A stretch of 42,246 bases of DNA, taken from NCBI GenBank assembly GCA_029243145.1, contig JAQWSQ010000006.1:1-42246 (forward strand). Direction: 5' to 3'. A model generated the notes under the pieces. It was not told the DNA's origin. It saw nothing but the letters and a program-made list of their open reading frames with translations, and ran no database searches. Shown one piece after another: positions 8,113 through 33,311 of the stretch. The position numbers and the translations under genes were made by a program. Source of the stretch: Planctomycetaceae bacterium. GTDB lineage: Bacteria > Planctomycetota > Planctomycetia > Planctomycetales > Planctomycetaceae. Within the stretch, counting starts at the first letter, position 1. Each line of letters opens with the position of its first letter.

Positions 8113-9570
8113 TCACCTCACATAACTCGGGGAACGCTCCTCAAACTGCACTCGCAATTCTTTGACAACATCGGGATGCTTGTCGGCGACGTTGATCGTT
8201 TCCAACGGATCGGTCTCGTGGTCGTAGAGTTCCACCGCTTCTGGTTTCTTCTTGTTGGGAGGATAGATCGTCAGGCGATACCGATCAGTTCGCATCGTCT
8301 GTCCTCCCCGATACGCACTGAATGCGGCTGTCTTTCCGGAGTGCTGGGGATTGTCGAGGACTGGGCGAAGTGAAAGTCCATCGAGTGTTAACCCCTCATT
8401 CGGGAGTTTGCAATAGTCGGCGAACGTCGGGTAGAGGTCAACAGATTCGACAATCGCGTCAGTCGATTGGCCGGGTGAGTTCATGCCCGGCGTGCGGACA
8501 ATCAATGCACTGCGGACGGCTCGTTCAAAGTTGGTGTGTTTGCCCCAAATATTGTGATCGCCGAGGTGCCAGCCGTGATCTCCCCAGACAAGAATGATGG
8601 TGTTGTCTGCGAGGTCCAGTGTTTCCAGTTCGTCGAGGACTTTACCAATCTGGGCGTCCACGTAACTCACACATGCATAATAGGCATGTCGCAAATTACG
8701 ATGATGGGCGGGATCGTTGCGGCTGCCATCAGGATGTTTGTAGTTGCCGAACATTTCACCGCTGCCGTGCCAACTTTGTGAGGCGGCCCCTTCCGGTTTG
8801 TCGGGGTTCGGAGAGAGTTCAATCTCGGACGGATCGTACAGATCAAAATACTTCTTCGGAGCACAGAACGGCAAGTGCGGCTTGAAGAAACCAACCGACA
8901 ACAAAAACGGCTGATCGTATTTCTTCATGCGACGCAGTGTCTCGATGGCCGAATTGGCGATCAAGCCATCGGGATAACCTTCGTCTTCGACATCCATCGC
9001 TTCAAACGGTGGCGATTGTCCACGTTTTCGACCTTCACCGCTGGCATAACCAAAGAAAGCGGGCCAGCCGTGAGTCCATTGGCCGGCGGGAAGTCCCACT
9101 TCATCCCAACTGAATGGCATTTCGAGTCGTCCGTCTCCCTGCATGTCGTATGAATAGATTCGCCCGTCGGGATAATGGCTGATCTTGCCGATGCAGACCG
9201 TGTGATAACCATTGTCTCGAAAGACTTGGGGAAACGCGGTCGCTCTCTCTTCCTGATCGGCCTTGAGCAGATTCCGTATCGCATCGTTCGATTGATGAAT
9301 GGGCAGGGTGGGGCGATGTCCCGTCAATAAGGCATAGCGCGATGCACCGCACGTGGGGACTTGCACGTAATGTCGATTGAAGATGCGTGCCGATGTGGCG
9401 AAACGATCCAGATGCGGTGATTTGATGTGAGTCTCGCCGTAACAACCGAGTTCCGGCCTTAAATCATCGACGGCAATAAACAGCACATTCGGACGCTCCG
9501 CGGCAGAGATTGTCGAGGGCAAACAAGCGAGGATCGATACCATCAAAAGCAGTTTGAATGAAAATTTCAT
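8113..9570 (-). CDS. secreted sulfatase, iduronate-2-sulfatase-like
   Basis: Protein of 485 residues with a signal peptide (MKFSFKLLLMVSILACLPSTISA). The sulfatase metal-site start RPNVLFIAVDDLRPELGCYG follows, and the maturation motif is C74-G-A-S-R78, where the cysteine would become formylglycine. The third position is Ala rather than Pro of the classical CxPxR. HTWG-type and GDHGWHLGDHNIWGKHTNFE blocks mark the C-terminal half of the active site. The AVDDLRPELGCYG block is typical of the iduronate-2-sulfatase/choline-sulfatase branch. Likely acts in the periplasm or outside the cell on sulfate esters of polysaccharides. It converges with the RNase HII-like gene, 39 bp from its stop. Confidence 0.93.
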   Translation of the reverse strand: MKFSFKLLLMVSILACLPSTISAAERPNVLFIAVDDLRPELGCYGETHIKSPHLDRFATSARIFNRHYVQVPTCGASRYALLTGHRPTLPIHQSNDAIRNLLKADQEERATAFPQVFRDNGYHTVCIGKISHYPDGRIYSYDMQGDGRLEMPFSWDEVGLPAGQWTHGWPAFFGYASGEGRKRGQSPPFEAMDVEDEGYPDGLIANSAIETLRRMKKYDQPFLLSVGFFKPHLPFCAPKKYFDLYDPSEIELSPNPDKPEGAASQSWHGSGEMFGNYKHPDGSRNDPAHHRNLRHAYYACVSYVDAQIGKVLDELETLDLADNTIILVWGDHGWHLGDHNIWGKHTNFERAVRSALIVRTPGMNSPGQSTDAIVESVDLYPTFADYCKLPNEGLTLDGLSLRPVLDNPQHSGKTAAFSAYRGGQTMRTDRYRLTIYPPNKKKPEAVELYDHETDPLETINVADKHPDVVKELRVQFEERSPSYVR

Positions 9571-9704: not shown

Positions 9705-10862
9705 CTATTCCTGCTCCAAAAATCGCACGCAAACGCACGCCGTGACTTTGATCTCTTCGCCGGTTGATTCGGGCAGGCCGGTTTCTTGATTCACTTTGAA
9801 GACGACAATGTTGTCGCTGTCTTGGTGAGCGGCGAGCAGCCATTTTCCATCAGGTGTGAGATTGAAGTTCCGAGGGATTTTACCACCGCTGGAGACAATC
9901 CCGACTTTTTCCAGCATGCCGGTGTTCTGATCAATCTTGAACACGGCAATCGAATTCGGACCACGATTCGAGACATATACGAATTTGCCGTTGGGATGGA
10001 CTCTCACTTCGGCAGTCGAGTTTCCTTCCAGCGGTGTGTTATCAGGAACCGTTGAGATCGTCTGCAATGGATTCAGTATGCCGCGTTCCGCATCAAACTC
10101 AAACGCCGTGACTGAGAGTAGGATTTCGTTGTTCGTGTAAGCGAATTTGTTGGACGGATGGAACGCGAAGTGTCGCGGTCCTCCACCGAGGGGAGTTCTG
10201 ACAAATGGACTTTCATTCGGCTTGAGCGAACCCGTGTTCGGATCGAATCGATAGATCAAGATTTTATCGAGTCCTAAGTCTGCCGCAACGGCAAAGTTAT
10301 TGCCGAGATCGGTGTTGATCGAATGTGCGTGCGGTGCAGCTTGCCGGCGCGGATTAACGCTGGAGCCTTCATGCTGAATGAACGAGGTTGCTTTCACGAG
10401 AGAACCATCTTCTTTGAGTGGCAGGCAGACGACACTTCCACCGCCATAGTTGGCCGCGAGAACATTCTTGCCGGTCGGATCAACAATCAAATGGCACGGT
10501 CCCGCACCGCCGGTCGATTGACCGTTGATCTTGGACAGTTCGCCAGTTTTGGGATCGAGGTCATAGCCGACGACTCCCCCGACAGGCTTTCCATCGGTAT
10601 CGCTCACTTCACTGACGGCGTAGAGATGTTTGCCGTCGGGATGGATGGCAAGAAAGGACGGGTTTTTTGTTTCGGCGGCCACCGTGGCTTTCGAGAGCTT
10701 GCCAGTCGATGTATCGAACTCGGCTCGATATATTCCTTTGCTGTCTGCTCGGGTATAAGTTCCGAAATAGACCCAAAGTTTCTCTCCAGCAACGGCGGTT
10801 GAGGCGACAGTCATCAGGCAGATCCCGGTTACAAGGGACAAGAATGGTTTGTGGTTCAGCAT
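9705..10862 (-). CDS. secreted lactonase family (seven-bladed beta-propeller) protein, 6-phosphogluconolactonase-like
   Basis: Protein of 385 residues. The frame opens at 10976, but the ATG at 10862 has GGAG 7 nt upstream and begins a signal peptide (MLNHKPFLSLVTGICLMTVASTAVA). The mature part starts KLWVYFGTYTR, the classic opening of the Lactonase/YbhE family. The repeats are rich in LAIHPDGKHLYAVSE, GAGPCHLIVDPTGKNVLAANYGGG, GPRHFAFHPSNKFAYTNNE and VHPNGKFVYVSNRGPNSIA, each a propeller blade. Cytoplasmic relatives hydrolyse 6-phosphogluconolactone; the exported planctomycete versions have no settled substrate. It is divergent from the gluconolactonase-family gene at 11044, with 181 bp between starts. 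Confidence 0.9.
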   Translation of the reverse strand: MLNHKPFLSLVTGICLMTVASTAVAGEKLWVYFGTYTRADSKGIYRAEFDTSTGKLSKATVAAETKNPSFLAIHPDGKHLYAVSEVSDTDGKPVGGVVGYDLDPKTGELSKINGQSTGGAGPCHLIVDPTGKNVLAANYGGGSVVCLPLKEDGSLVKATSFIQHEGSSVNPRRQAAPHAHSINTDLGNNFAVAADLGLDKILIYRFDPNTGSLKPNESPFVRTPLGGGPRHFAFHPSNKFAYTNNEILLSVTAFEFDAERGILNPLQTISTVPDNTPLEGNSTAEVRVHPNGKFVYVSNRGPNSIAVFKIDQNTGMLEKVGIVSSGGKIPRNFNLTPDGKWLLAAHQDSDNIVVFKVNQETGLPESTGEEIKVTACVCVRFLEQE

Positions 10863-11043
10863 GTTGTTTCTCCAAAAAAGGTCTCTTGTATTTAACAGCC
10901 CAGAGGGAGGCGACTCAAGCGGCGTTTTTGAATTTGCCGACAACTCGGGCAGACTTGATAAATCTGCTTGATTCACAGCCTCTGGCAGTTCACTATCGAC
11001 AGATAGATACCGGTACGCTTTTCACACACAATTGAGAACTCCC

Positions 11044-12159
11044 ATGACAGAGACCATCAAGTCCGAAAATCAGACTTCCAATGATCACAGTTTTAACCGT
11101 CGCGCCTTCTTGACGGCTGCTCTCACCGGGGTCGCGGGAACAGCTCTCGCACGAGATTATGGTCCCGGAGCCGCACCGGTTCATTACCCCGACCCTGATA
11201 TCGTCTCGCTCGATGAGCGTTTCGATAAACTGAAACTCGGCAATACCCCCATTCAGAGAATTCATACCGGAACGCTGTGGGCGGAAGGCCCTGCCTGGAA
11301 TGGTGTCGGTTGTTATCTACTTTGGAGCGATATCCCCAATAATGTTCAACTTCGCTATCTGGAAGAAGATGGTCATACCAGTATTTTTCGGCATCCCTCC
11401 GGGAACAGTAACGGTAACACCTTCGATTATCAGGGACGCCAAATTTCCTGTCAGCATGGACCGAGGCGCGTCGTTCGTTATGAGTATGACGGCAGCATCA
11501 CAGTTCTCGCTGATCAATTTGAAGGCAAGGAACTCAACGCTCCTAACGATGCCGTCGTCCATCCCGTTGATGGTTCGATTTGGTTCACCGATCCTGGCTA
11601 CGGCGGTCTGATGAACTACGAAGGAAACCGCCTGAAGACTGGTACTGTGCAACCCAACCAAAAAGAGGCGGTTTACCGGATTGATGCCAAGACGGGTAAG
11701 ATTACCAAGCTGACGGAAGAGATCTTTAAACCAAATGGATTATGTTTCTCGAACGACTACAAGAAATTGTACGTGGCCGACACGGGTTCCTCGCACTACC
11801 CAGAGGCTGAGAAGGAAATCAAGGTCTGGGATATCGTCGAAGGTAGCAAACTCAAAAACGGACGCACTTTTGCTTCCATGAAAATGGAACTTGATGGAGA
11901 AGTTGTCGCCGGTCAAGCCGACGGCATCCGCTGTGATACCGAGGGCAATATCTGGTCGTCCGCTGGTTGGGTCGGTGATGGGTATGATGGCGTGCATATC
12001 TTCGCGGCTGAAGATGGTGCCCGCATCGGTCAAATTCGCCTGCCCGAAATTTGCTCGAACGTTTGCTTCGGCGGGACCAAACGGAATCGACTCTTCATGA
12101 CGGCCAGCCAATCGGTCTATAGTGTCTATACCGAAACTCAGGGAGCGCATATCAGTTAG
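11044..12159 (+). CDS. Tat-exported SMP-30/gluconolactonase family protein
   Basis: Protein of 371 residues from ATG 11044; the frame begins 12 nt earlier at a TTG. The N-terminus carries FNRRAFLTAALTGVAGTALA, a twin-arginine signal. The mature protein has the SMP-30/LRE-like propeller marks GTLWAEGPAWNGVGCYLLWSD, ISCQHGPRRVVRYEYDG, NAPNDAVVHPVDGSIWFTDPGYG, NGLCFSNDYKKLYVADTG and ADGIRCDTEGNIWSSAGW, which include the metal-binding Glu, Asn and Asp positions of the family (AEGP, APND, ADGI). The family hydrolyses sugar lactones with a divalent metal. Its divergent neighbour is an unrelated propeller lactonase, so both may act on sugar lactones in the periplasm; the substrate is unknown. Confidence 0.92.
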   Translation: MTETIKSENQTSNDHSFNRRAFLTAALTGVAGTALARDYGPGAAPVHYPDPDIVSLDERFDKLKLGNTPIQRIHTGTLWAEGPAWNGVGCYLLWSDIPNNVQLRYLEEDGHTSIFRHPSGNSNGNTFDYQGRQISCQHGPRRVVRYEYDGSITVLADQFEGKELNAPNDAVVHPVDGSIWFTDPGYGGLMNYEGNRLKTGTVQPNQKEAVYRIDAKTGKITKLTEEIFKPNGLCFSNDYKKLYVADTGSSHYPEAEKEIKVWDIVEGSKLKNGRTFASMKMELDGEVVAGQADGIRCDTEGNIWSSAGWVGDGYDGVHIFAAEDGARIGQIRLPEICSNVCFGGTKRNRLFMTASQSVYSVYTETQGAHIS

Positions 12160-17728: not shown

Positions 17729-19099
17729 TCAAATGCGAACGAAAAGTTTACGGCGATACATCCAGAAGACAATAAGCCACATCGTAAAGAGAATGAGCAG
17801 CGACTCGTTAATCTGTGCGTAAACATTCTTTTCGCTGAAAAAGATAGGAACTAGACTTGAATGGAACACGGCGTCGATGGTCGCCATATGGGTTTCCAAA
17901 TTATGTCCAATCCAGCCATGAATCATGGATGCCATGAAGTAAAAGGCAATCGAATTCATCCCCACCACAACCAGCGGAAAACCAAGCCGTTTCACTTTGA
18001 GGACATCGAAGACCAGAAAGAATATGCCCATCATGATCAACACCCAACCGGTGCTGAAGATGGCCCAAGTGGGTGTCCAGATCCGTTTGATGATGGGTGA
18101 AGCAGTCCAACCCCAATCACCCGTATCGATGGGCCAGATGTGAGTATCCATCAGCATCCCGATAACTAACAAAAGAAATCCGGAAGCGAACAACAGGCGA
18201 CATTTTCGTTGCTCGGTCTCGGGACCGATGAGTAATTGCCCCGCCATCAGGCCAAAAATCATGGTGGCGATTGATGGGATAAAGCTGAGCGTAGTGTAGC
18301 CCCCTGTATTGGCCCAGAACTTCTTGCCGCGAAATTCGTCTTCAAATCGCGGTGGTTTGTTGAGCCATTCGCGATCAAAACCGGCGGCAGCGTTAGTGTG
18401 TTTGTTCCAATGAGCGGCGTAAGTGTCGTCAAACTGCTCAGCCTCGACTAACGGATCAAAGCCTTCTTCTTCAAGCCAGGCATACAGGTCGGTCTGTTCC
18501 TGTTCGGGAATTTGATAATCGTAGAACCAATATCCGTAACCTCCCAGAATGACGATGATCGCCAGCATTTGAACGCCCGAATTTCGTCCAACTAACAGAT
18601 AGACGAAGATGTATCCCAAGCCGATTTGCGTCAGCACGTTGACAAGCTTGAAATGAGTCATCGGGTCGCCGACCGAATATAGAAACACGCCCATACCTAT
18701 TAAAATGATCGAACGAAGTGTCGCGTGTAGTAACCGTCCGAGCCCATGCTGACCTTTTTGGGCGCGTTTGGAATACGAGAAGGGCATCGAAACGCCCACC
18801 ATGAACATGAAGGCGGGTTGGATTAGATCCCAGAATGCGCAGCCGACCCAAGGGACGTGAGAAAGCTGATACGCCATGGTCTCCCAAAGAGCTTTGCTTT
18901 GCCCTGATGCCAGAATCTCAGACTGGTGATTTCTCCAAACACGCGCGATAGCGAAGCCTTCCGAGGCCATCATCAGCATCACGAAACCACGGAATGCATC
19001 GAGTGAAACGAGCCTAGGCACTGGTTTATTGCGATCCGCTTCTTCATTGATCGCTCTTTGTAGCGGTGTTTCATGCGGTTTGGAAATGGGAATCGTCAT
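17729..19099 (-). CDS. HGSNAT-like membrane acetyltransferase (DUF5009/DUF1624 type)
   Basis: Integral membrane protein of 456 residues. After a short cytoplasmic N-terminus it has PRLVSLDAFRGFVMLMMASEGFA, the signature of the heparan-alpha-glucosaminide N-acetyltransferase / acyltransferase-3-like group, then about nine further hydrophobic segments (for example FWDLIQPAFMFMVGVSMPFSYSKR, LNVLTQIGLGYIFVYLL-like, SFIPSIATMIFGLMAGQLLIG, WAIFSTGWVLIMMGIFFLVF). The relatives move an acetyl group from cytoplasmic acetyl-CoA across the membrane onto a terminal glucosamine or other glycan. Its start is only 43 bp from the stop of the giant fusion gene upstream, so the two probably share a transcript. 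The acceptor sugar is unknown. Confidence 0.87.
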   Translation of the reverse strand: MTIPISKPHETPLQRAINEEADRNKPVPRLVSLDAFRGFVMLMMASEGFAIARVWRNHQSEILASGQSKALWETMAYQLSHVPWVGCAFWDLIQPAFMFMVGVSMPFSYSKRAQKGQHGLGRLLHATLRSIILIGMGVFLYSVGDPMTHFKLVNVLTQIGLGYIFVYLLVGRNSGVQMLAIIVILGGYGYWFYDYQIPEQEQTDLYAWLEEEGFDPLVEAEQFDDTYAAHWNKHTNAAAGFDREWLNKPPRFEDEFRGKKFWANTGGYTTLSFIPSIATMIFGLMAGQLLIGPETEQRKCRLLFASGFLLLVIGMLMDTHIWPIDTGDWGWTASPIIKRIWTPTWAIFSTGWVLIMMGIFFLVFDVLKVKRLGFPLVVVGMNSIAFYFMASMIHGWIGHNLETHMATIDAVFHSSLVPIFFSEKNVYAQINESLLILFTMWLIVFWMYRRKLFVRI

Positions 19100-19142: not shown

Positions 19143-22100
19143 TTATTCTGTGCCGTGACCATGTCCCGGTTTGAGGCCGGGGCCTGCTTTGTCTTTCAGG
19201 TGTTCTGGGAGTTTGTAACCCCCGGCTTCGAGGAAAGAGAGCAGGTCGAGGATTTCATCTTTTTGCAGCACATCCGCCAATCCTTTCGGCATCGGTGAGA
19301 TTTTCGAGGGGAATTGTTCGTCAATTTTATTCTTGCTGATGATCGTCACTTGTGTCGGTAACAGCAGGTTTTGAATCAAGTGGAGTTCATCGTCGGTTTC
19401 CTTGGCAATCACTCCGGTGAGAACTTTTCCGCTCTTGAGAATCAACTGGTGAGGTTGGTACTTCTTGTTGATTTCGGTGGAGGGTTCCAGAATTTGTTGC
19501 AACAGCTTTTCGCCGCGATAGTTTTTTGTGACTTCCGTCAAGTCGGGGCCGAGTTTTACGCCGTGATGGCCCACGACATGACATTGATGACAGCGTGCTT
19601 TCAAAAACGCTTGCATTCCTCGCATGACCCGATTTTCTGATTGTTTCACTTTCATGCCAGCAAAATCGGTCATTGTCCATTGCTTGACGATTTGTGGCTT
19701 ACTCTCTGCAAGCAACTGCTTCGCTTCTTCGAGACTCGAACCGACTGCAATGCTGCCGTTCATAATAACCCAGTGCCCCGGGAATGTGCAGACGAATGGA
19801 TAGATTCCCGGTTCTTTGGGGGCGACAAATCGTAAAACATGAACCTGAGTTTTGCGTGTGGGGCCAATCATGGGAGACGCTTTCAGAATCAGACTTTTTT
19901 TCTCTGCCGGAATGAAGTCGGAATTCGCAAAATTTGGGTCTTTCGCCATCGCATTGGCGGCCATACCGACCTCTTCCAAAGCTCCCGGTTTGACGATCAC
20001 GAGATTGTGGTCGGTTGCATCGGGATTCGAGAAAACAATTTTGACCGGTTGTCCGCTTGTTACTGCGATTTGATCTTCAGTGAATCGCATTCGTTCAGGA
20101 ACACATCCAATTTTGACCGTTTTGAGATTATTTTGGCTATCGAATTGGGCTTCAGAGGCGGTCGGTGCCGGTTCTTTGAGTTCGCTGCTGCGTTCCAGTT
20201 TTTTCATCAAGCGGGCAAGATTATAATTCGGATCATTTTCCCAATGCGGTTTCAGAGTATGTGATCCGAGAGAACAGCGAATCGCGTAAGCAAGATGTTT
20301 GTCACTGGGATGATTCAAAATGTCGAGCATCGCATTGAGAGCGTCTTTGGTTCCGATGTAACTGGCTGCGATGGCGGCTTCCATGCGAACAAGGCCGTTA
20401 GAATCATTGGCCGACTTGTTGAGGAGTTCGATGGCATCCGGCATTTCGGTATGCCAGTAGCGCAGTTGTTGTGTGGCTGCAGCACGAGCATGATGATCGT
20501 TACTTTTTAGAATGTCTCGCAGCAAGTCCGTATCGACCGCTTCGATCCACCGTAACGTCCAGACGGCTTCGATTTGATGATGTGGGTAACGCTGATGGTT
20601 TTTATCGAGGTTGGATACCCAGGTCTTTACAGTGTGTTCGACTTGTTGTTGGTCTCGTTCACGAAGTTCCCGTTTGGCCCAATAGCGATAACGGTATTCT
20701 GGACGAGCCAACATCTCCACTAATTCGGCGATGGACATTTCTGCGAAGTTCGGTGAGTCCTGAACCGGGTGTCCCTTGGCCGTAATTCTCCAGATACGCC
20801 CCGAGTGACGGTCGCGGCGTTCGTCCCGCAGCGAATATTGGGCGTGTCCTTTCACGGGGTTATACCAGTCGCAGATATACATGGCACCGCGTGGCCCGTA
20901 TCGTAAATCGACGGGAATGAAACTGAGGTTCGACGAGAAAATCAGATCGCTGACATATTCTTCGTCGTATCCGAATTCGCCTTCGACCCATTTGTGAATT
21001 TCAATCCGGTTTGTTGGCTTGTACCGGGCTTTGATAAAGCCTCCCTGTAACTCTTCTGGGAATGTGTTGAAGTCAACAAACTCATGGCCTGCCGTTCCCG
21101 AATAGGCTTGCAAACCAGCCGGCTTAGGATGTTGAGACGGGTAAGGAGGATCGAGTGCATGAAATGCCGCTGCGAAGACCGGATGACTGGCAACGTGGTT
21201 TCCCCAATCATCAAAAGTGACACCCCACGGATTCGTACTTTGATAACTGCCGAAGCTGGTCAGCCGCTGATGAGCGGGCTCGAAGCGAAACCACCCACTG
21301 TTTTGTTGCCGGACGGGACCGTAGGGAGTTTCCACCTGGCTGTGATGAAAAATTGATTCGCGAAATATCAGATCTCCATCGGGTGTCCAGGAGAAATCGT
21401 GCAACGAGTGGTGCGAATCTTCGGTTCCGAAACCCGTCAACAACAATTTACGGACATCGGCTTTGTCGTCTCCATCGGTATCTTTCAGGAATGTCAGGTG
21501 TGGCATCTCGGAGACATAGATTCCTCCATCTCCAAACTCGAACGAAAGAGGGATGTGCAAGTCATCGGCGAAGACGGTCGATTTGTCAGCCTTTCCGTCA
21601 CCGTCGGTATCTTCGAGAATCACAATTTTGTCGTTCGGTTCGTTCATTGGATAAACGTGCGGATAAGTGGTCGAACAACTAACCCATAATCGTCCTTGAT
21701 TGTCCCACCGCATTTGGATCGGAGCGCCAATGTCGGGAAACTGTTCTTCACCTGCAAACAGATTCACTTCGAAGCGAGGATCGATCTTGAAGGCTTTGAG
21801 TTCGTCTTCTGCCGTCATCCATTCATTGGCACCACGACTTTGAGCTGTTTCCGGCATCTCGGGAAGATTGGAATCATCGAGTCGTTGCGGTAAGGGCTCA
21901 CCTTGAGCCAATGCCGACAGTCGGGCGTCCCGATTTTGCACCATCAAATTGAAGTTCTTCATGGCGGGGAGGAAATCCAAATAGCCGTACGAACCTTTGC
22001 GGCCACCGGTGTAATAGAAGGTGTTGAGTGGTCGATAGCGCCGGAAATACTGTCGGTTTTTATCGACGACCAGCTCGCGAATCTGTTCGTTGATGTCGGA

Positions 22101-22958
22101 GGCGTCTTCCTGAAATGTCCCACTGAAGAGGGACCGTGAAAAGACCTCGTAACCTTCTTTATTAAGATGCACGCCGTTCAACGTGATCGGCGTTTCGCTC
22201 TCTTCCATCGCAGCGGCTGTCGCTTCGTAGACATCGACAAATCCGACTCTTGTTTTGATGGCGACTCGTTTCACCGCATCGGCATAAAGTCGAATATTCT
22301 TATTGTTGGCTTTTGCGGGAACGCCTTCGATATTCTCATTTGCGATGGGGGAGACAAGAACAATCTGAGGACCGGTTTTTCCGTTGAAGGCACTCGACTT
22401 GAGTTTGGAAACGAACTTCGTGAGAGCGATCTCAAAGTCGGTGACTGCCAAGTGACCTGCAAAGGACTCATTGAATCCGTACGACGCGAATATGACCTCG
22501 ATCTTCTCATAGGTGAGGTGCTGATTGATGTCGGCGAAGTTGTCGGGACGTGGTTGCAAATCGGGAGTGTCTGCCGACCAGCAGAGGTTCCTGACAGTCA
22601 GTTTGTGGTCCGGATATTTTTGATGCAGGAATGTTTCGAAATAACCATGAAACTGAGACTGCTCAAGGAGGCCGTTGCCGATGAACGCAATGCGAGCCTC
22701 TTTGGTAAATTGCAACGGGAGTTTGGTAGAAACGGGTCGCACGGTGGGGGCACGTGGTGCAGAGTTTTCAAAGATGGCATACTTGGCGTATTCGGGATCT
22801 TTCTCGGGAGCCGGTTTGTCGGTCTTCTGATTTTTGGCATCTTGGACTTTGGGTTTATTTTTCTTCGATTTCTGAGCATCGAGATGCGTCGAAGAAACCA
22901 GAACTCCACAGAGAGAGACGACCGTTACAAACAAACAACATTGAGCGAATCGAGACAT
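19143..22958 (-). CDS. giant secreted redox fusion: SGNH-like + dehydrogenase propeller + HEAT + cupredoxin + cytochrome c
   Basis: Protein of 1271 residues; ATG at 22958 with AAGG 7 nt upstream (a TTG precedes it). Parts in order: signal peptide; Lys-rich linker; SGNH-hydrolase-like domain (about 75-285); PVC-type membrane-bound dehydrogenase propeller (about 385-730) with two DTDGDxKAD calcium-type loops; HEAT-like helices (about 740-905); type 1 copper domain (about 945-1075) with ligands H985, C1058, H1063 and M1067; cytochrome c domain with CHQCH (1124-1128) and the downstream planctomycete heme-domain extension; His/Gly-rich tail. The Ser of the SGNH nucleophile block is replaced (FIGNGLLE), so esterase activity is doubtful. 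Probably oxidises a sugar or alcohol outside the cytoplasm and passes electrons to copper and heme. Paralog of the gene at 24188-29137. Confidence 0.88.
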   Translation of the reverse strand: MSRFAQCCLFVTVVSLCGVLVSSTHLDAQKSKKNKPKVQDAKNQKTDKPAPEKDPEYAKYAIFENSAPRAPTVRPVSTKLPLQFTKEARIAFIGNGLLEQSQFHGYFETFLHQKYPDHKLTVRNLCWSADTPDLQPRPDNFADINQHLTYEKIEVIFASYGFNESFAGHLAVTDFEIALTKFVSKLKSSAFNGKTGPQIVLVSPIANENIEGVPAKANNKNIRLYADAVKRVAIKTRVGFVDVYEATAAAMEESETPITLNGVHLNKEGYEVFSRSLFSGTFQEDASDINEQIRELVVDKNRQYFRRYRPLNTFYYTGGRKGSYGYLDFLPAMKNFNLMVQNRDARLSALAQGEPLPQRLDDSNLPEMPETAQSRGANEWMTAEDELKAFKIDPRFEVNLFAGEEQFPDIGAPIQMRWDNQGRLWVSCSTTYPHVYPMNEPNDKIVILEDTDGDGKADKSTVFADDLHIPLSFEFGDGGIYVSEMPHLTFLKDTDGDDKADVRKLLLTGFGTEDSHHSLHDFSWTPDGDLIFRESIFHHSQVETPYGPVRQQNSGWFRFEPAHQRLTSFGSYQSTNPWGVTFDDWGNHVASHPVFAAAFHALDPPYPSQHPKPAGLQAYSGTAGHEFVDFNTFPEELQGGFIKARYKPTNRIEIHKWVEGEFGYDEEYVSDLIFSSNLSFIPVDLRYGPRGAMYICDWYNPVKGHAQYSLRDERRDRHSGRIWRITAKGHPVQDSPNFAEMSIAELVEMLARPEYRYRYWAKRELRERDQQQVEHTVKTWVSNLDKNHQRYPHHQIEAVWTLRWIEAVDTDLLRDILKSNDHHARAAATQQLRYWHTEMPDAIELLNKSANDSNGLVRMEAAIAASYIGTKDALNAMLDILNHPSDKHLAYAIRCSLGSHTLKPHWENDPNYNLARLMKKLERSSELKEPAPTASEAQFDSQNNLKTVKIGCVPERMRFTEDQIAVTSGQPVKIVFSNPDATDHNLVIVKPGALEEVGMAANAMAKDPNFANSDFIPAEKKSLILKASPMIGPTRKTQVHVLRFVAPKEPGIYPFVCTFPGHWVIMNGSIAVGSSLEEAKQLLAESKPQIVKQWTMTDFAGMKVKQSENRVMRGMQAFLKARCHQCHVVGHHGVKLGPDLTEVTKNYRGEKLLQQILEPSTEINKKYQPHQLILKSGKVLTGVIAKETDDELHLIQNLLLPTQVTIISKNKIDEQFPSKISPMPKGLADVLQKDEILDLLSFLEAGGYKLPEHLKDKAGPGLKPGHGHGTE

Positions 22959-23047
22959 CAAAGAACCTTAATTACCAACCCGGCGAGCAATTCTGACGAA
23001 TCTGCATGATAGCCGCACGCAGCGAGATAATCACGTGTTGATTCGAT

Positions 23048-24049
23048 TTAGAAATCGTACCACAGTCCGAAACCGATTTGCTCTTCATGCTGATTGAAGA
23101 ACGAGAACTGAGGACTCTTGCCGTTGTAATACGAGAGACCTGTTCGCAGGAGTCCGGGATAATGCTCGCTTCGCCACGCCCAACCCGCTTGAGCGGCAAA
23201 GCCGCCTCCAAAATCGACCTCTTCTCGCAAGTCGCCATTCAGTGCGAAGAAAGGGGCTCCTTGAATGCCGGTGGGGCTGGGAGGAGCGTAATCGATGCCG
23301 AAAGTGAATCGCCACGGTCCGGCAACTTCTCTCCAAAATGCGTAGGCTGATTCGCCGTAAAGGCGGACGGAGGGAATGGGATAGTAAGAGTATCCGAGTA
23401 CGACAGAATCGCGAAAATAGTTCAGCCGATCGAAACCCACATTTTTGAGCAGAAATTCGTCGCCAAGATGCGAACTGATATGAGAATATCCAAACTTGAA
23501 ACGGTGTGGGCCCGCACCCCAAGTGATGGGAACATCGACACGGAAATCAACCGAGCGCACGTCTTGATGTTCGTTGGGATCCATACGCAACTTTGCGGCG
23601 GCCAGGATGTCGAGTTGCACACCTTCAGGTCGATCAGCCGGCCCCCAACGAAAGAGCCCCAACCGACCACCGAGTGTGGAATCCCACAACCAACCATCTT
23701 CTTTTTCATAGACCCATTGAGTTCAGAGTCGCGGTTCGTGGGGATTGCCAAGATATGTGGAATAGATGAATTCCTCTGGCATAAAGACAAATGAGGGATA
23801 TTCAGATGGTCCAGAAAGCCGATCATCGAGAGACTGCGGTTGGCTATTGAAATCGCTGATTTCTTGTCCGGAAGAATACAGAACCTTCCCAGCAGATGCT
23901 GAGAAAATATCTTCTGCGTTAGTCCAGTTTTGTGCGGAGAGTTCACAACAGAAAGCAAGTAGAGTCAGCAGAGACCACCAGACGTACTTCCACCCCGAAC
24001 AGTGATGCTGTTGCAGCTTCAATCGAATTGTAGAGCTTGGGAAACGCAT
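23048..24049 (-). pseudogene. DUF1207 outer-membrane-type beta-barrel gene interrupted by an in-frame TGA
   Basis: From the ATG at 24049 (GAGG 6 nt upstream) the frame encodes a signal peptide and the DUF1207 N-terminal segment EEFIYSTYLGNPHEPRL. A TGA follows (23725-23723), after which the same frame continues at once with TQWVYEKEDGWLWDSTLGG and the rest of the barrel to a stop at 23048. The remainder has alternating aromatic strands ending in GLWYDF, an outer-membrane barrel end. Without the TGA the protein would be 333 residues, normal for the family. The family usually has a small residue such as Ser at this point, so a TCA to TGA change would explain it. Alternatives are a sequencing error or read-through. 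It lies between the two giant paralogs. Confidence 0.85.
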
Positions 24050-24100
24050 CGAAAGCCTCAAAACGATCAGCAGGTGATGCGAGGGGCAGGGGGCCTCTAC

Positions 24101-24135
24101 GAAAAATGGGACTGGAGTTTTAATTCTCCAGTCCC
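24101..24135 (-). terminator. Rho-independent terminator of the 1649-residue giant gene
   Basis: On the minus strand GGGACTGGAG (24135-24126) pairs perfectly with CTCCAGTCCC (24117-24108) around an 8-nt AATTAAAA loop, followed by ATTTTTC. It lies about 50 bp past the stop codon at 24188, ends that transcript, and separates it from the DUF1207 gene. Confidence 0.9.
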
Positions 24136-24187
24136 ATGAGCTCAAGATCGATTAGCAAGCTAATCATGTTTGCTGTCAACGTAAGAA

Positions 24188-27100
24188 CTACTTATAAACG
24201 GGGGAATTCGCATCTCCTGCCGATTCGATGTACAACAACAGATCGAAGATTTCGTGTTTTGTGAGCGTGTTCAAAAGTCCTTCGGGCATGAGTGAAACTT
24301 TCGAATCGACTCGTTCTTCAATAGTGTCCTTCGGGATTTCGATCGCCTTGGCATCTTTTTCCAGCGGGTTGGCTATCAGGCGAATCACTTTGTCATCTTC
24401 GTAGACGATAACTCCGCTATAAGGCTTTCCTTCGTCATTGATAACAATTTGGGTGCGATACTTTTCGTCGATGACCTTGGAAGGCTCGATCATCTCGTTC
24501 AACACTCGCACACGGTCAAGTTTTCCGTCCTGCATTTTCTGACGCACTAATGTCAGGTCGGGACCAAATTTGGCACCTTCTCCTTTCATTTGGTGGCATT
24601 GAACGCAGGCAATCGATTTGAACAACAGGCGGCCATTTTCGAAGGATCGATTTTCATCGGCTTGAGGCAACGAAGCGAGCAAGTCTTCGACTTTCCACTT
24701 ACGGACAAAACGACGTTGGTACATCGGACCGTTCGAGTGATTGTGCTCTTCAGCCGGTTCATCGAGTTGTTCCAGAGGGATCTCTGAAATGTCTTTCACG
24801 ACGTGAATTGTGCCATACATGGTTCGCCAGTGACCGGGGAACGTACAGACAAACGGATAATCTCCCAGTGATTGCGGAGCCGTCAGCTTGAGGCGTTCTT
24901 GTAATCCTGGTTGTAGCAACCCCGTGTAGGCGAGAACTTTATCGGTATCGGGAATGAACTGCTTTTTCATCGCCTCGGGTGATGATCCAAGTTTCTCAGC
25001 CAGAATTCCGACTTCCTCGCGTGCGCCGGGTGTGGTGAGGACCAGATTGTGAGGCATGATGTCGTTATTCTCGAAAACAATTTCGAAAGGTTTGCCCGCT
25101 TCGACATACAGGTTCGTTCGGTCGTACTGCATTTTGTGTGGTACAGGCCGAATGAAAAAGACATCGACTCCCAGTTGCCGGAACTGAGTGATCAAAGAGC
25201 GTGCTTCAGATTCGGGAAGAATAACTGCCAATCGTTTACCGAGCTGAATCGCTTCCATGATGTCATCTCGCGTTCGCTGCTCGATGGGAATCTGTTCGAC
25301 GATGCCGAGCAGATTATCGATGAGCGGTCGCACTTCCTGTTCAGAAAGTTTGGCACGGTTGAGACGACTGAGGGCTGAGACTGCTTCTGGCCGTGAGGTA
25401 TTGGTTTTGACAAAATCTGACAGTGTTGAGAACGTCTCTGCTTCATGTCCGGGAATGGAGACGATAGAGCGGATGGCTTCTTCACGGATCACCTGTTTGG
25501 GATTACCTTTGACGGCAAACTCGGTTTTGGGATTGGGGACTTTATTGTTTCCACGAGCGTAAACCGCTTGTCGGGAAGAATCGAGTATTTCGATTTTGAA
25601 TTTATCAATCCGATTGCCCGTGCCTCCATCGGTTCGGTTCCAGACTAGAATCTGTTCTATTGGATAATCGGCTTTCAAATCGACCTCCCACCAAGGGTTT
25701 CGCTCCCCGTTGGTATGCGTCGAAGTACCTTCGTTGTAAACACCGCTGGTGTTTCCATCGATGGCGCGATTGGGAGTTCCACTGAAAGCGGTTGAAGACT
25801 GAGAGGCTTTCCCCTTGGTGGCAATGTTTTCGCCTCTACTGAAGATTTGAACCTCGGCTAACGTCAATGTGCGACTCTTACCAGGAAGTGTTATACGAAC
25901 GTAGCGACCAAGTTGTCCTTGTTGTTGACCGAGGGTGGCGGCCAATGTCTCTGGAAGACCGTGCAAGAGTGGCTCAATTTTGGAATACGTCTTCTGCCGC
26001 ACATCAACAGACTGAATGAGCGAGATGGCGGCGACCAGATCTCGAAGTGCTCCGAGTGATTTGGTTGCAGTCGCCCAAGCGGCGTCGATGTTTTGATCGG
26101 CCGTGATGAGTGCCGCGAAGGCGACTCTCCGGGTGATCGGTTTTTGTGCCGACTCGGTCAACTCTTCAATTTGTGATCGATGTTTGGTGATGTTCTTGCC
26201 GGGTTGACGGCTGAGTAAAATTCCCAAGTCGATCAACACATGTTCGCCGTGCTCGCTGTCTTGTGTGTCAAGCTGCGAGATCGTTTCCAGTAACTCGTCC
26301 ATAGGAGTGGTGTTGTGGAGACGGGCGAGGCCGTCGATGGCTTCTTGACGATGTTGGAACACAACGCCGTGTCGGTTGAGCATCTCGTTGTAAACAATCC
26401 CACTCCGCGCCATGTTGATCAGGTCGGGCGTTTTGATGGTTGAGATAATGAACTTAATGCCTTCGGTATTTCCCTTGGCAAACGGTTGTCCCGCAGCGAC
26501 TGCCGGTAACCAGTAAGGTTCGAGAGCCTGCATGGTTTGTTTCAAGGTATAGTCGAGATAATAATCCATCTCGTGATTGAGTGCCTGCAGCGCAATTTCG
26601 CCCGCTTCTGGTGTTTCAAAGAAACTGGCAGAGCGAACGGCTTCAAGACGGACACGTGGATGGTCGTCGTTGGCCATCTCTTGCAACAGATTTAATGCTT
26701 CGGAAACATCATCACGCCAATAACCCAAGACACGAGTTGCCGCAGCGCGAGCGTGGTAGTCGGGTGAGTGTAAAACACGTCGCAGGTGGCTGACATCGAC
26801 GGCGTTATGATGCTGTCGAACCCACAAGGTTTCGAGCAACAGGTGCTCGTAGTTGTCGGCGTTCTTATCGAGACCCGCGATGAATTTTTGAATGCCTGTC
26901 ACGACCGATGCTGTGGGACGTTCGCGTAGTTCGATTTTGACCCGGTAACGGGTGCGGTCTTCCGGTTCATTGAGAAGAGTGAGCAGTTCTTCCACCGAGG
27001 CACCTTTGATGGTCGGCATTTTGACCAACGGACGTGAGGGATAGGTGATTCGCCAGATTCGTCCGTGAGTGTGGTCGCGATTCGGGTCGCGGATGGAGTG

Positions 27101-29137
27101 TTGTAAGTGACCGATGAGTGGGTTGAACCAGTCAACGATGTAGAGCGCACCATCCGGGCCGAATTGAATGTCGGTCGGGCGGAAGTTGCGATCAGATGAG
27201 TACAACAACGGTTCGATCTCTTTACCGACGAAGCCGGATTTCTCTTCTTTGACCGTGTGTTGCAGGATTCCCTGGAATCCAATCACGTTATTGAGTAGGT
27301 AATTGCCTTGCGCTTCTGGCGGGAAATGTCGGCTGGAAACAAGTTCGCAGCCAGCCGTCGGGCGGACACGTTTCGGAAAGAACTGTTCCATCGTGGGAGC
27401 ATAGGCAAACTTGAATGGTCCAAAATCTTCCTGACCAGTAAATTGTGGAGCCTTGCCTGAAAAAGCGGTGCCAAAGTAATTCGCACCACCCGAGGCATCG
27501 GCGACAAAGTTTTGTCCCCATTTGTCAAAGACGTGACCCCAAGGGTTGGCGAAGTTGTAATGCACGAAGGTCTCAAATATTTCCTTGGTGGGGTCGTACC
27601 GATAGATTCCCCCGTGTGCATTGCGGACTGGTCCATACGGAGTCTCGACCATCGAGTGATGGAACGTTCCTTCATGCAAATAGAGTCCGCCGCCCGGCCC
27701 CCAAGTGAAAGCGCCAATGGAATGGTGAGTATCACCAGAGTCAAAGCCGTGGAGAACGAGACGAGAGTAGTCGGCTTTGCCGTCGCCGTCGGTATCTTTG
27801 AGGAAGGTTAAATTCGGCTGTTGTGAAACATAGACGCCGCCATCTCCGAGTTCAAAACCGGTGGGGACATGTAGGTTTTCTGCAAAGACGGTTTGCTTGT
27901 CGGCCTTGCCATCGCCATCCGTGTCTTCCAGAACGAGAAGCTTATCGTGTGGCTTATTGGGCGGTTTGTAGCCGGGGTATGAAGGCATTGTGGCGACCCA
28001 CAAGCGACCTTGAGTATCGAACGTAATCTGGACCGGGTTTTCAATGTCCGGAAAATCGACTTCGCTCGCAAACAGATTGACCGCGTATCCATCGGCAACA
28101 TGGAATTGTTTGATGGCCTCTTCGGGCGGAAGAATCTCGATTGGTTCTTTGTAGTTGGTTTCCACAGGAATATAGCCGCGAGTACCTGAGTAATCGGGAG
28201 TGGCGGGAATTGGCTGTCCGTTGACGAGCTTCCAGATGCGTTGATCGACGACGGCACACATCTCGTCGAGCTTGGCCCGCTCATTCTCCATGACTTCTTC
28301 ATTGTTCCAGACTTTGTTGCGAGCACCATAAATGTAATAGCCGTTGACAGCTCGATAGCGATTGAACCACTGATAATCTTTTTCTTGAACTTCAGCGAGT
28401 AACTGCGGTGATACCTGTTGTTGGGGAGCTTCATCAGTCAAGGCTTCGTAGAAAACGGGAGCGAGCTTTTTGTAGCCAGCATCCGTGAGGTGAATTCCGT
28501 TGAAAGTGACATGTTCGGATTCTTGCAACATCACTTTTTGGGTTGGCGTAAACAGGTCAACAAACGAGACCGATTCTCCCGCAGCGACTTTCTTCATGAC
28601 CTGAGAGTACATGGCAATGTTGGCGTTGTTTGCTGAACCATCTGGCAGATTAGGGTTCTTTAAGTTTTCGTGAGGAATCGGTGTGAACAAAACCAATCGA
28701 GGGGCTGACTCTCCGTTGTACTTTTGTTGGAGAGTATGTCGGACGAATTGTTTCAAATCGTCTTCAAACTTTTCGAGTCCCTCTTCACCTTTGAATGATT
28801 CATTGAAGCCAAAGAACGCAAAGACGACATCCGTTTCGGAATGTGTCAGGTGTTGGTCTGGTTCGCCGAAGTTCAATGATCGAGGGCGAAAGGCAACATC
28901 GTCGGCGGAGAACGCCAGATTACGAAAGGATAATTGCAGGTCGGGATGATTGGCATGCAGCAAGGATTCGAACTGGCCGAAGTATTGCATTCGTTCAGCC
29001 AGAGTTGCGCCGATCAGGCTGACTTTATCCCCTTTCTGAAATTCAAACTGAGGGGATTCCGCTTGAGCGGCAGAATCAAGCATTCCAACTATGTCGAGAA
29101 CAAATAGGCCAAGAACGACTAGCAAGCAACGTTTCAT
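24188..29137 (-). CDS. giant secreted redox fusion with added F5/8-type C domain
   Basis: Protein of 1649 residues from the ATG at 29137 (GAGG 6 nt upstream); another ATG at 29149 is in frame. Numbering below is from 29149. Parts: signal peptide; SGNH-like domain (about 35-240) with FFGFNESF and FNGIHLTDAGY but no nucleophile Ser (LIGATLAER); PVC-type dehydrogenase propeller (about 340-705) with two DTDGDGKAD loops; long HEAT-like helical region (about 715-1070); F5/8 type C (discoidin-like) carbohydrate-binding domain (about 1075-1215, TKGKASQSSTAFSG, NPWWEVDL); more helices; type 1 copper domain with H1367, C1435, H1440 and M1444; cytochrome c with CVQCH (1515-1519). Probably an extracellular or periplasmic oxidase/dehydrogenase acting on carbohydrate. 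Ended by the terminator at 24101-24135. Confidence 0.88.
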   Translation of the reverse strand: MKRCLLVVLGLFVLDIVGMLDSAAQAESPQFEFQKGDKVSLIGATLAERMQYFGQFESLLHANHPDLQLSFRNLAFSADDVAFRPRSLNFGEPDQHLTHSETDVVFAFFGFNESFKGEEGLEKFEDDLKQFVRHTLQQKYNGESAPRLVLFTPIPHENLKNPNLPDGSANNANIAMYSQVMKKVAAGESVSFVDLFTPTQKVMLQESEHVTFNGIHLTDAGYKKLAPVFYEALTDEAPQQQVSPQLLAEVQEKDYQWFNRYRAVNGYYIYGARNKVWNNEEVMENERAKLDEMCAVVDQRIWKLVNGQPIPATPDYSGTRGYIPVETNYKEPIEILPPEEAIKQFHVADGYAVNLFASEVDFPDIENPVQITFDTQGRLWVATMPSYPGYKPPNKPHDKLLVLEDTDGDGKADKQTVFAENLHVPTGFELGDGGVYVSQQPNLTFLKDTDGDGKADYSRLVLHGFDSGDTHHSIGAFTWGPGGGLYLHEGTFHHSMVETPYGPVRNAHGGIYRYDPTKEIFETFVHYNFANPWGHVFDKWGQNFVADASGGANYFGTAFSGKAPQFTGQEDFGPFKFAYAPTMEQFFPKRVRPTAGCELVSSRHFPPEAQGNYLLNNVIGFQGILQHTVKEEKSGFVGKEIEPLLYSSDRNFRPTDIQFGPDGALYIVDWFNPLIGHLQHSIRDPNRDHTHGRIWRITYPSRPLVKMPTIKGASVEELLTLLNEPEDRTRYRVKIELRERPTASVVTGIQKFIAGLDKNADNYEHLLLETLWVRQHHNAVDVSHLRRVLHSPDYHARAAATRVLGYWRDDVSEALNLLQEMANDDHPRVRLEAVRSASFFETPEAGEIALQALNHEMDYYLDYTLKQTMQALEPYWLPAVAAGQPFAKGNTEGIKFIISTIKTPDLINMARSGIVYNEMLNRHGVVFQHRQEAIDGLARLHNTTPMDELLETISQLDTQDSEHGEHVLIDLGILLSRQPGKNITKHRSQIEELTESAQKPITRRVAFAALITADQNIDAAWATATKSLGALRDLVAAISLIQSVDVRQKTYSKIEPLLHGLPETLAATLGQQQGQLGRYVRITLPGKSRTLTLAEVQIFSRGENIATKGKASQSSTAFSGTPNRAIDGNTSGVYNEGTSTHTNGERNPWWEVDLKADYPIEQILVWNRTDGGTGNRIDKFKIEILDSSRQAVYARGNNKVPNPKTEFAVKGNPKQVIREEAIRSIVSIPGHEAETFSTLSDFVKTNTSRPEAVSALSRLNRAKLSEQEVRPLIDNLLGIVEQIPIEQRTRDDIMEAIQLGKRLAVILPESEARSLITQFRQLGVDVFFIRPVPHKMQYDRTNLYVEAGKPFEIVFENNDIMPHNLVLTTPGAREEVGILAEKLGSSPEAMKKQFIPDTDKVLAYTGLLQPGLQERLKLTAPQSLGDYPFVCTFPGHWRTMYGTIHVVKDISEIPLEQLDEPAEEHNHSNGPMYQRRFVRKWKVEDLLASLPQADENRSFENGRLLFKSIACVQCHQMKGEGAKFGPDLTLVRQKMQDGKLDRVRVLNEMIEPSKVIDEKYRTQIVINDEGKPYSGVIVYEDDKVIRLIANPLEKDAKAIEIPKDTIEERVDSKVSLMPEGLLNTLTKHEIFDLLLYIESAGDANSPVYK

Positions 29138-29454
29138 CGGTATCCTCATCTTTAGTTGTGTGTGATTTCTTGTGTGGTGTGGGAGGGAAATCGCGGGGCC
29201 AACGATTCCTAATCGGGTGGGAGAGCGTGATTCAGAGAATCGACCACTCTTTTTCCATTATCAGGACCACACCCCGACAAGCAAGTCTCTGTACGCATTG
29301 ATTGGAGGTTTCACGAAGACAAACTTCCTGAAAAATGTGAAATCGAACCAGATTTTGGGAATTTATCAGATTCACATTGGCTCCTGTTTCATAAGCTGAT
29401 CAGCCCATTCCGAATTCTCGATGACCTTTCATTCTCACTCCGAGGAGTTTTTCC
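29138..29454. other. divergent intergenic region
   Basis: About 317 bp between the divergently transcribed giant fusion gene and the DUF4349 lipoprotein gene. It must hold promoters for both, but I see no convincing -35/-10 pair, operator or structured RNA. Confidence 0.5.
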
Positions 29455-31880: not shown

Positions 31881-33311
31881 ATGAGCGACAATCGTCCGAA
31901 TATCATCTTCATTATCACAGATCAGCAGCGTTACGACACCATCAACGCGCTCGGCTACGATTACATGGATACGCCGAACCTTGACCGGTTGGCAAATGAG
32001 GGTGTGGTTTATACGCAATGTCACGTCACTGCCGCGTCCTGTGCTCCGGCACGCGCTTCGTTGTTCAAAGGTTATTACCCTCATACAACCGGCATTCTGA
32101 AAAATGCCGATACTTGGCGGCGTTCGTGGATCGAATTACTGAACGACTCGGGCTATCACTGCACGAACGTCGGCAAAATGCACACTTGGCCTTTTGAAAC
32201 AGAACTTGGTTTCGATGAGCGTTACGTCGTCGAGAACAAAGATCGCTATCTCGAAGGTCGGTACTATTTTGATGAGTGGGACAAGGCTCTCCGATTTCGG
32301 GGGCTCATCAAGCAGCAGCGAGAACTCTACCGCAAGCGAGACGACTATCGTGATCGCTTGGGCGCGTTTGAGTGGGAACTGCCTGAAGACACTCATCCCG
32401 ACATGTTTGTGGGAGACATGGCGACCTGGTGGATCAATTCCTATCCGAAGACAGCCCCATTGTTTTTACAGATCGGTTTTCCGGGACCGCATCCGCCGTA
32501 TGATCCCATTCCGCGTTATGCAGATCCGTATCTGAAAAAGGATCTCCCGTTGCTGGAAGTTACTCAGAAAGAACTCGATAATCAGCCTCCCGCGTTCAAA
32601 GAGTTACGTCAGCATAATCAGGACATCGATCACGATTCGGTCGTCTTGGAACTCGAACCGACTGAAGAGCAACGCCATTTGCAACGTGCTTATTATCTCG
32701 CCAATGTGACCATGATTGACGAGAAAGTCGGCGAGATTATTGACGCTTTGGAACAAAACGATTATCTCGACAATTCGATCATCATCTTCACCTCTGATCA
32801 TGGTGATTGCCTGACCGATCACGGTCACAGTCAAAAATGGACCATGTATGATTCCATTACCCGAATCCCTCTGATTGTCTGGGCTCCGCAGAAATTCCAG
32901 GGAGGACGAGTTGTCGACGAACTCTGCCAACAGATGGACTTGGGGCCGACGATTCTGGAATTGGCAGGAGTCGAAGTGCCTCACACTCTCGAAGCGATCT
33001 CGATGAAGGAGTCTCTCGAAAGTGATGACTGGAAAGGACGCGATTACGTCTTCGCCGAGCAAATCAAAGACGGCATTCTTACCGGGTGCGAATTCATGAC
33101 GATGGTTCGGAGTCAGGAATGGAAACTAGTTCATTTCCTAGACGAACCACACGGTCAACTCTTTAACCTCACCGAAGATCCTGACGAAGTGAACAACCTG
33201 TGGGACGATGAAGGTTCGGCCAAAGAGAAACAGAATCTACTGGATGTCTTGCGAGAATGGCGAATCCGCAGTGGTATCGAGACGGCGGACTGGTCACAAG
33301 ATTGGAGATAG
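31881..33311 (+). CDS. sulfatase without signal peptide
   Basis: Protein of 476 residues starting directly with MSDNRPNIIFIITDQQRYDTI, so it is probably cytoplasmic. The formylglycine motif is C54-A-P-A-R58, a standard CxPxR site. FPGPHPPYDP, IIIFTSDHGDCLTDHGHSQKWTMYD and a C-terminal GQLFNLTEDPDEVNNLW complete the family pattern (arylsulfatase/choline-sulfatase type). It would hydrolyse sulfate esters, perhaps on small oligosaccharides after uptake. The other sulfatase in this window is secreted and has an Ala-type maturation motif, so the two may need different maturation. Confidence 0.93.
   Translation: MSDNRPNIIFIITDQQRYDTINALGYDYMDTPNLDRLANEGVVYTQCHVTAASCAPARASLFKGYYPHTTGILKNADTWRRSWIELLNDSGYHCTNVGKMHTWPFETELGFDERYVVENKDRYLEGRYYFDEWDKALRFRGLIKQQRELYRKRDDYRDRLGAFEWELPEDTHPDMFVGDMATWWINSYPKTAPLFLQIGFPGPHPPYDPIPRYADPYLKKDLPLLEVTQKELDNQPPAFKELRQHNQDIDHDSVVLELEPTEEQRHLQRAYYLANVTMIDEKVGEIIDALEQNDYLDNSIIIFTSDHGDCLTDHGHSQKWTMYDSITRIPLIVWAPQKFQGGRVVDELCQQMDLGPTILELAGVEVPHTLEAISMKESLESDDWKGRDYVFAEQIKDGILTGCEFMTMVRSQEWKLVHFLDEPHGQLFNLTEDPDEVNNLWDDEGSAKEKQNLLDVLREWRIRSGIETADWSQDWR

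Follow-up and report, generated by a model that had tools for sequence, protein, structure and literature searches.

A dehydrogenase-like propeller, an azurin-type copper site and a heme c domain on one chain in two giant planctomycete proteins

Members of the NCBI family "PVC-type heme-binding CxxCH protein" (TIGR02604 + TIGR02603; DUF7133) run from a propeller through HEAT repeats to a C-terminal heme c domain, and the two proteins described here, which we refer to as A and B, share this order with two additions, a copper domain of azurin type inserted ahead of the heme domain and an SGNH domain at the N-terminus. The only assayed relative we found is Lac161_ORF7, a Verrucomicrobia protein from a soil metagenome which combines TIGR02604, HEAT_2 and TIGR02603 as A and B do; it was purified and reported as a beta-galactosidase hydrolysing lactose with a Km of 1.8 mM (PMC5342196), and, unlike A and B, no copper or SGNH domain is reported for it. 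PSCyt genes have been tied to carbohydrate use in Verrucomicrobia (PMC5615132). The C-terminal half of the diheme cytochrome Kustd1711 (PDB 7ZS0) is homologous to the heme domain of A, including the CxxCH and the SxMP methionine, but this protein of an anammox organism has two hemes and neither propeller nor copper. Auracyanin and azurin have the cupredoxin fold and the C-x4-H-x3-M loop of A and B, yet are small and free-standing, whereas the copper domain of A and B is fused. The fungal pyranose dehydrogenase CcPDH provides a one-chain precedent for a PQQ propeller with heme (PMC6881789); CcPDH/AA12 and sGDH have six-bladed propellers like A and B, that of CcPDH also being heme-fused, and bind PQQ via contacts of the Arg228/Asn229/Gln231 type, which A and B keep only in part, whilst heme b takes the place of the copper and heme c of A and B. 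We found no description of the copper-bearing architecture in the literature searched, which does not prove that none exists.

A and B are encoded by two long open-reading frames on the minus strand of the window, by which we mean the whole 42,246-nucleotide stretch of the Planctomycetaceae contig JAQWSQ010000006.1 that was analysed (Table 1). The likelier start of A is the ATG at 22958, one codon after the TTG; position 29137, given as the start of B in the original prediction, is an internal ATG four codons into the frame. The two genes are 1226 bp apart with one DUF1207 gene between them, matching the 1.2 kb spacing and broken barrel gene noticed earlier, and since this gene is intact in both congeners, its in-frame stop would be either recent damage to the gene or a fault in the assembly. 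The surroundings of A and B are a carbohydrate-catabolism neighbourhood. Positions 8113-9570, 31881-33311, 9705-10976 and 11032-12159 of the window hold sulfatase genes, one for a propeller of lactonase type and one that is SGL/gluconolactonase-like.

Table 1. Positions in the window of proteins A and B, their domains and the adjoining genes.
Feature	Position	Strand	Basis or remarks
Protein A	19143..22961	-	1272 aa from TTG; signal peptide, degenerate SGNH, propeller, HEAT, azurin-type Cu, heme c
A SGNH/GDSL-like domain, residues 102-273	22143..22658	-	Lipase_GDSL_2 (PF13472) E 9e-11; Axe2-type esterase fold matches
A six-bladed propeller DUF7133/TIGR02604, residues 384-732	20766..21812	-	profiles; AA12/PQQ sugar dehydrogenases Z about 23-24
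A HEAT-repeat solenoid	20139..20732	-	PF13646 (HEAT_2 at residues 812-893); helices in structure model
A azurin/auracyanin-type cupredoxin	19740..20123	-	azurin/cupredoxin match at residues 957-1072; His985, Cys1058, His1063, Met1067
A TIGR02603 heme-c domain	19227..19625	-	Cytochrom_C/TIGR02603 at residues 1113-1245; CxxCH (residues 1124-1128) at 19578-19592; distal-Met candidate Met1224, codon 19290-19292
Protein B	24188..29149	-	1653 aa; signal peptide, degenerate SGNH, propeller, HEAT, F5/8C, azurin-type Cu, heme c
B SGNH/GDSL-like domain, residues 61-227	28469..28969	-	PF13472 E 1.7e-12
B propeller DUF7133/TIGR02604, residues 342-703	27041..28126	-	profiles
B HEAT_2 match, residues 788-863	26561..26788	-	profile
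B F5/8 type C (galactose-binding-like) domain, residues 1115-1211	25517..25807	-	profile (F5_F8_type_C)
B azurin/plastocyanin-type copper domain, residues 1339-1450	24800..25135	-	Cys1435, His1440, Met1444
B TIGR02603 heme-c domain, residues 1504-1643	24221..24640	-	CxxCH at residues 1515-1519
DUF1207 (barrel-like) gene	23048..24049	-	single in-frame TGA at 23723-23725; uninterrupted in two congeners
NagX-like membrane acyltransferase	17729..19099	-	immediately downstream of A; same place in two congeners

Domains were assigned with Pfam and NCBIfam profiles at curated cut-offs, and the matches of both proteins were far above chance (E as low as 1e-73). TIGR02604 scored 216.1 bits in A and 242.0 in B (cut-off 122.2), and TIGR02603 scored 89.3 and 76.9 bits (cut-off 68.15) with a CxxCH in both; judged by these profiles, A and B are members of the already catalogued PVC-type family. 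The domain order of B is that of A with the F5/8 type C domain added ahead of the cupredoxin, and the AlphaFold model of A has a mean pLDDT of 83.8 and a pTM of 0.77. Profiles and ligands thus bear out the original prediction in placing a propeller, a type 1 copper site and a single CxxCH heme on each chain; it had overlooked the SGNH domains of both proteins, the F5/8 type C domain of B and, on contig C8, a third paralogue.

The fusion of propeller, copper and heme is widespread and ordinary for planctomycetes. A match spanning the copper and heme domains was present in at least 53 of 392 sampled Planctomycetota genomes, the holders of the copper–heme fusion including Singulisphaera acidiphila DSM 18658 and Paludisphaera soli, and also in two records labelled Verrucomicrobia as deposited. 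This genome encodes 22 TIGR02603 domains, and because only four of the 22 heme-domain proteins carry a cupredoxin (one of them permuted to heme-propeller-copper), the family in general does not require copper. The third copper and heme paralogue (L001 5333-10423, minus strand, contig C8) has ThuA and F5/8 type C domains ahead of its SGNH domain. The permuted relative (L002 6525-9575, minus strand, contig C161) reads heme-propeller-cupredoxin from N- to C-terminus, its heme part lying upstream of the first common start codon of the frame, and a 1371 aa protein (L003 4581-8693, minus strand, contig C72) combines PA14, five CxxCH motifs and a DUF7133/GSDH propeller.

The copper loop of A reads C-T-F-P-G-H-x3-M, which is the azurin spacing, and each of the two proteins has one CxxCH. 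All four copper ligands, the CxxCH and the distal methionine in SxMP are invariant in alignments of 51 full-length and 66 didomain rows. As these rows had been gathered by a pattern which fixed the Cys and second His of the copper site, we also checked an independent set of 29 loci picked by homology alone, in which the copper motif was not selected for; the ligand set was complete in 29 of 29 (28 by regular expression and L027, with an EHN context, by inspection). Loss of the ligands in orthologues, named beforehand as the observation that would overturn the original prediction, did not occur in either sample. In fold the cupredoxin matches auracyanin (Z 18.8) and azurin (Z 16), and the azurin equivalog TIGR02695 gives 31 and 36 bits for A and B, below its 105.1 cut-off; on these scores the domains are to be classed as azurin-like rather than azurin proper. 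The heme domain of A matches the crystallised Kustd1711 with an E-value of 3e-29 and the SxMP motifs align, the distal Met292 of Kustd1711 lying inside; Kustd1711 is a Met-ligated diheme protein with hemes at about +350 mV (PMC11791136). A heme-c assembly protein is encoded in the genome. The copper and heme modules of A and B as such are credible, and the evidence supports a single chain that joins a dehydrogenase-like propeller to a copper site of azurin type and a heme c with His/Met ligation. Prediction of the copper–heme didomain reached a pLDDT of 86.7 and an intermediate pTM of 0.69, with the relative placement of copper and heme uncertain.

The folds nearest to the modelled propeller of A are AA12 and the PQQ sugar dehydrogenases of archaea and bacteria, at Z about 20-24 and with about 280 residues superposed at an rmsd of about 3 A; the non-enzymatic HHIP (Z about 21) and DFPase follow closely. 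As modelled, the fold fits a sugar dehydrogenase. The strong GSDH profile match does not prove GSDH homology independently, since the matched alignment contains TIGR02604 members. Pfam GSDH (PF07995) has no reported match in A and B, whereas other TIGR02604 proteins encoded in this genome score above its cut-off; alignment of the A and B propellers with the genome's canonical GSDH protein (L135) by hhalign was not significant (1.7%), and a sequence search of the PDB with the propeller alone returned no relevant match. L135 itself (contig C59, ORF 1474-3408, minus strand) has a GSDH-type propeller as its C-terminal half and, by eye, a DUF1080-like N-terminal half, which suggests that sugar oxidation and cleavage may be fused in one chain. 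Residues were placed in register by a profile alignment with further TIGR02604/GSDH proteins that this genome encodes. In sGDH, His144 is the general base and Asn229 a neighbour of PQQ (PMC6881810); by profile alignment with manual register they correspond to the invariant His518 and Asn577, and the polar residues Asp515, His517, His518, Asn577, Glu544 and His706 are all invariant or near-invariant. Other PQQ contacts of sGDH are replaced in both clades, Arg228 by Thr (A) or Ala/Pro (B) and Gln231 by Trp (A) or His (B). A search of this genome for PqqD found none, and PqqC is missing from 35 of 36 related genomes, being present in one; an enzyme of the quinone dehydrogenase type would accordingly have to scavenge PQQ or use a different cofactor. 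Of the complete electron relay first proposed, only the copper and heme modules and the dehydrogenase-like propeller are thus supported, whilst the substrate oxidation ascribed to it is called into question by the replaced ligands and the synthesis genes not found.

These observations also bear on a different reading, in which the propeller is a glycoside-cleaving or sugar-binding domain and the copper–heme tail a tethered, separate electron carrier or an oxidase or redox sensor. The reported lactose hydrolysis by Lac161_ORF7 (Km 1.8 mM, PMC5342196) speaks for it, and the incomplete PQQ contacts, the PQQ synthesis genes not found (PqqD here, PqqC in 35 of 36 relatives), the sulfatase and lactonase genes close by and the PSCyt link to carbohydrate use (PMC5615132) point the same way. 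However, neither a copper domain nor a structure is reported for Lac161_ORF7, the strict conservation of the heme domain sits badly with a plain hydrolase, and the general-base His of sGDH and the adjoining Asn are kept, so that we consider this reading somewhat unlikely.

The SGNH domain of A has a fold like acetylxylan esterases, with Gly in block I, where Ser occurs in none of the 47 rows that have a residue there, these showing Thr, Gly, Met, Asn or Ala; in 49 of 50 relatives Asn replaces the Asp of the triad, and the block-III Asn and block-V His are kept. To go by these residues, the domain is not expected to have ordinary esterase activity. A ThuA domain precedes it in some relatives, among them the third paralogue. 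Such degeneration would suit proteins of scaffold or recognition type, in which SGNH, propeller, HEAT and F5/8 type C domains bind glycans or partners and heme and copper shuttle electrons for another enzyme in trans: the Ser is lost in all rows and the Asp in nearly all, HEAT and F5/8 type C are binding modules, and HHIP, a relative by fold, is non-enzymatic. The six conserved polar residues of the propeller nevertheless resemble a site under strong selection, and we regard a pure scaffold as very improbable.

In the tree, A and B fall into two separate, fully supported clades, each with several families of Planctomycetota; the clade of A holds Fuerstiella-, Pirellula- and Rhodopirellula-type sequences, and that of B includes Singulisphaera and Paludisphaera. 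The order B-DUF1207-A-NagX occurs in this genome and two congeners (three of one genus) and was not seen elsewhere, and A loci in other genomes lack an adjoining B orthologue. Because the tree splits A and B deeply and A occurs elsewhere without a neighbouring B, a local tandem duplication is ruled out; the old duplication with specialisation, first read from the 1.2 kb spacing, gives way to two phylum-wide clades whose adjacency was seen in one genus only. The same result weighs on the original prediction taken as a whole, namely a functional dehydrogenase that passes electrons from a propeller cofactor to copper and heme within a single polypeptide and exists as two copies which arose by local duplication and specialised. 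Its three module types are present in order with invariant ligands, PQQ sugar dehydrogenases are the fold neighbours and CcPDH is a precedent (PMC6881789), yet the PQQ contacts are only partly kept and PQQ synthesis genes were not found, the copper–heme geometry is uncertain (didomain pTM 0.69) and A and B are deep clades rather than a local pair; in that form we find it distinctly unlikely.

The explanation we prefer, with moderate confidence, is that A and B are exported redox proteins from the cupredoxin-bearing branch of the TIGR02604 + TIGR02603 family, in which electrons would move from a substrate at the propeller through copper and heme c to a periplasmic acceptor. Export is suggested by the hydrophobic N-termini and by the requirement of heme-c biogenesis. 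A GSDH-like six-bladed propeller, on a HEAT scaffold and behind a non-catalytic SGNH-like module, would handle a small molecule, for which a sugar or oligosaccharide is the likeliest candidate to judge from the fold neighbours, the sulfatase neighbours and the Lac161_ORF7 report. Electrons would then pass to the azurin/auracyanin-type copper site and, through a presumed contact, to the high-potential His/Met heme c, a direction suggested by the TIGR02603 homologue at about +350 mV, and the heme c would deliver them to a periplasmic acceptor. A bolder version holds that A and B represent phylum-wide single-chain enzymes in which a propeller of GSDH type, using a cofactor that is scavenged or other than PQQ, oxidises glycans and is wired to a heme c of high potential by way of type 1 copper; this more specific claim is tentative and, in our judgement, unlikely.

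Planctomycetes such as this one have some twenty or more TIGR02604/TIGR02603 giants, and A and B are of interest as part of this class, to which no reaction has been assigned. Its copper-bearing branch offers two spectroscopic handles in one protein, the blue copper near 600 nm and the heme alpha band, and substrate screening by internal reduction of copper and heme would be simple and could reveal the role of the whole family. If single-chain glycan oxidation through propeller, copper and heme is true, it would be a further wiring plan beside the quinohemoprotein and flavocytochrome sugar dehydrogenases and would account for the giant PVC cytochromes.
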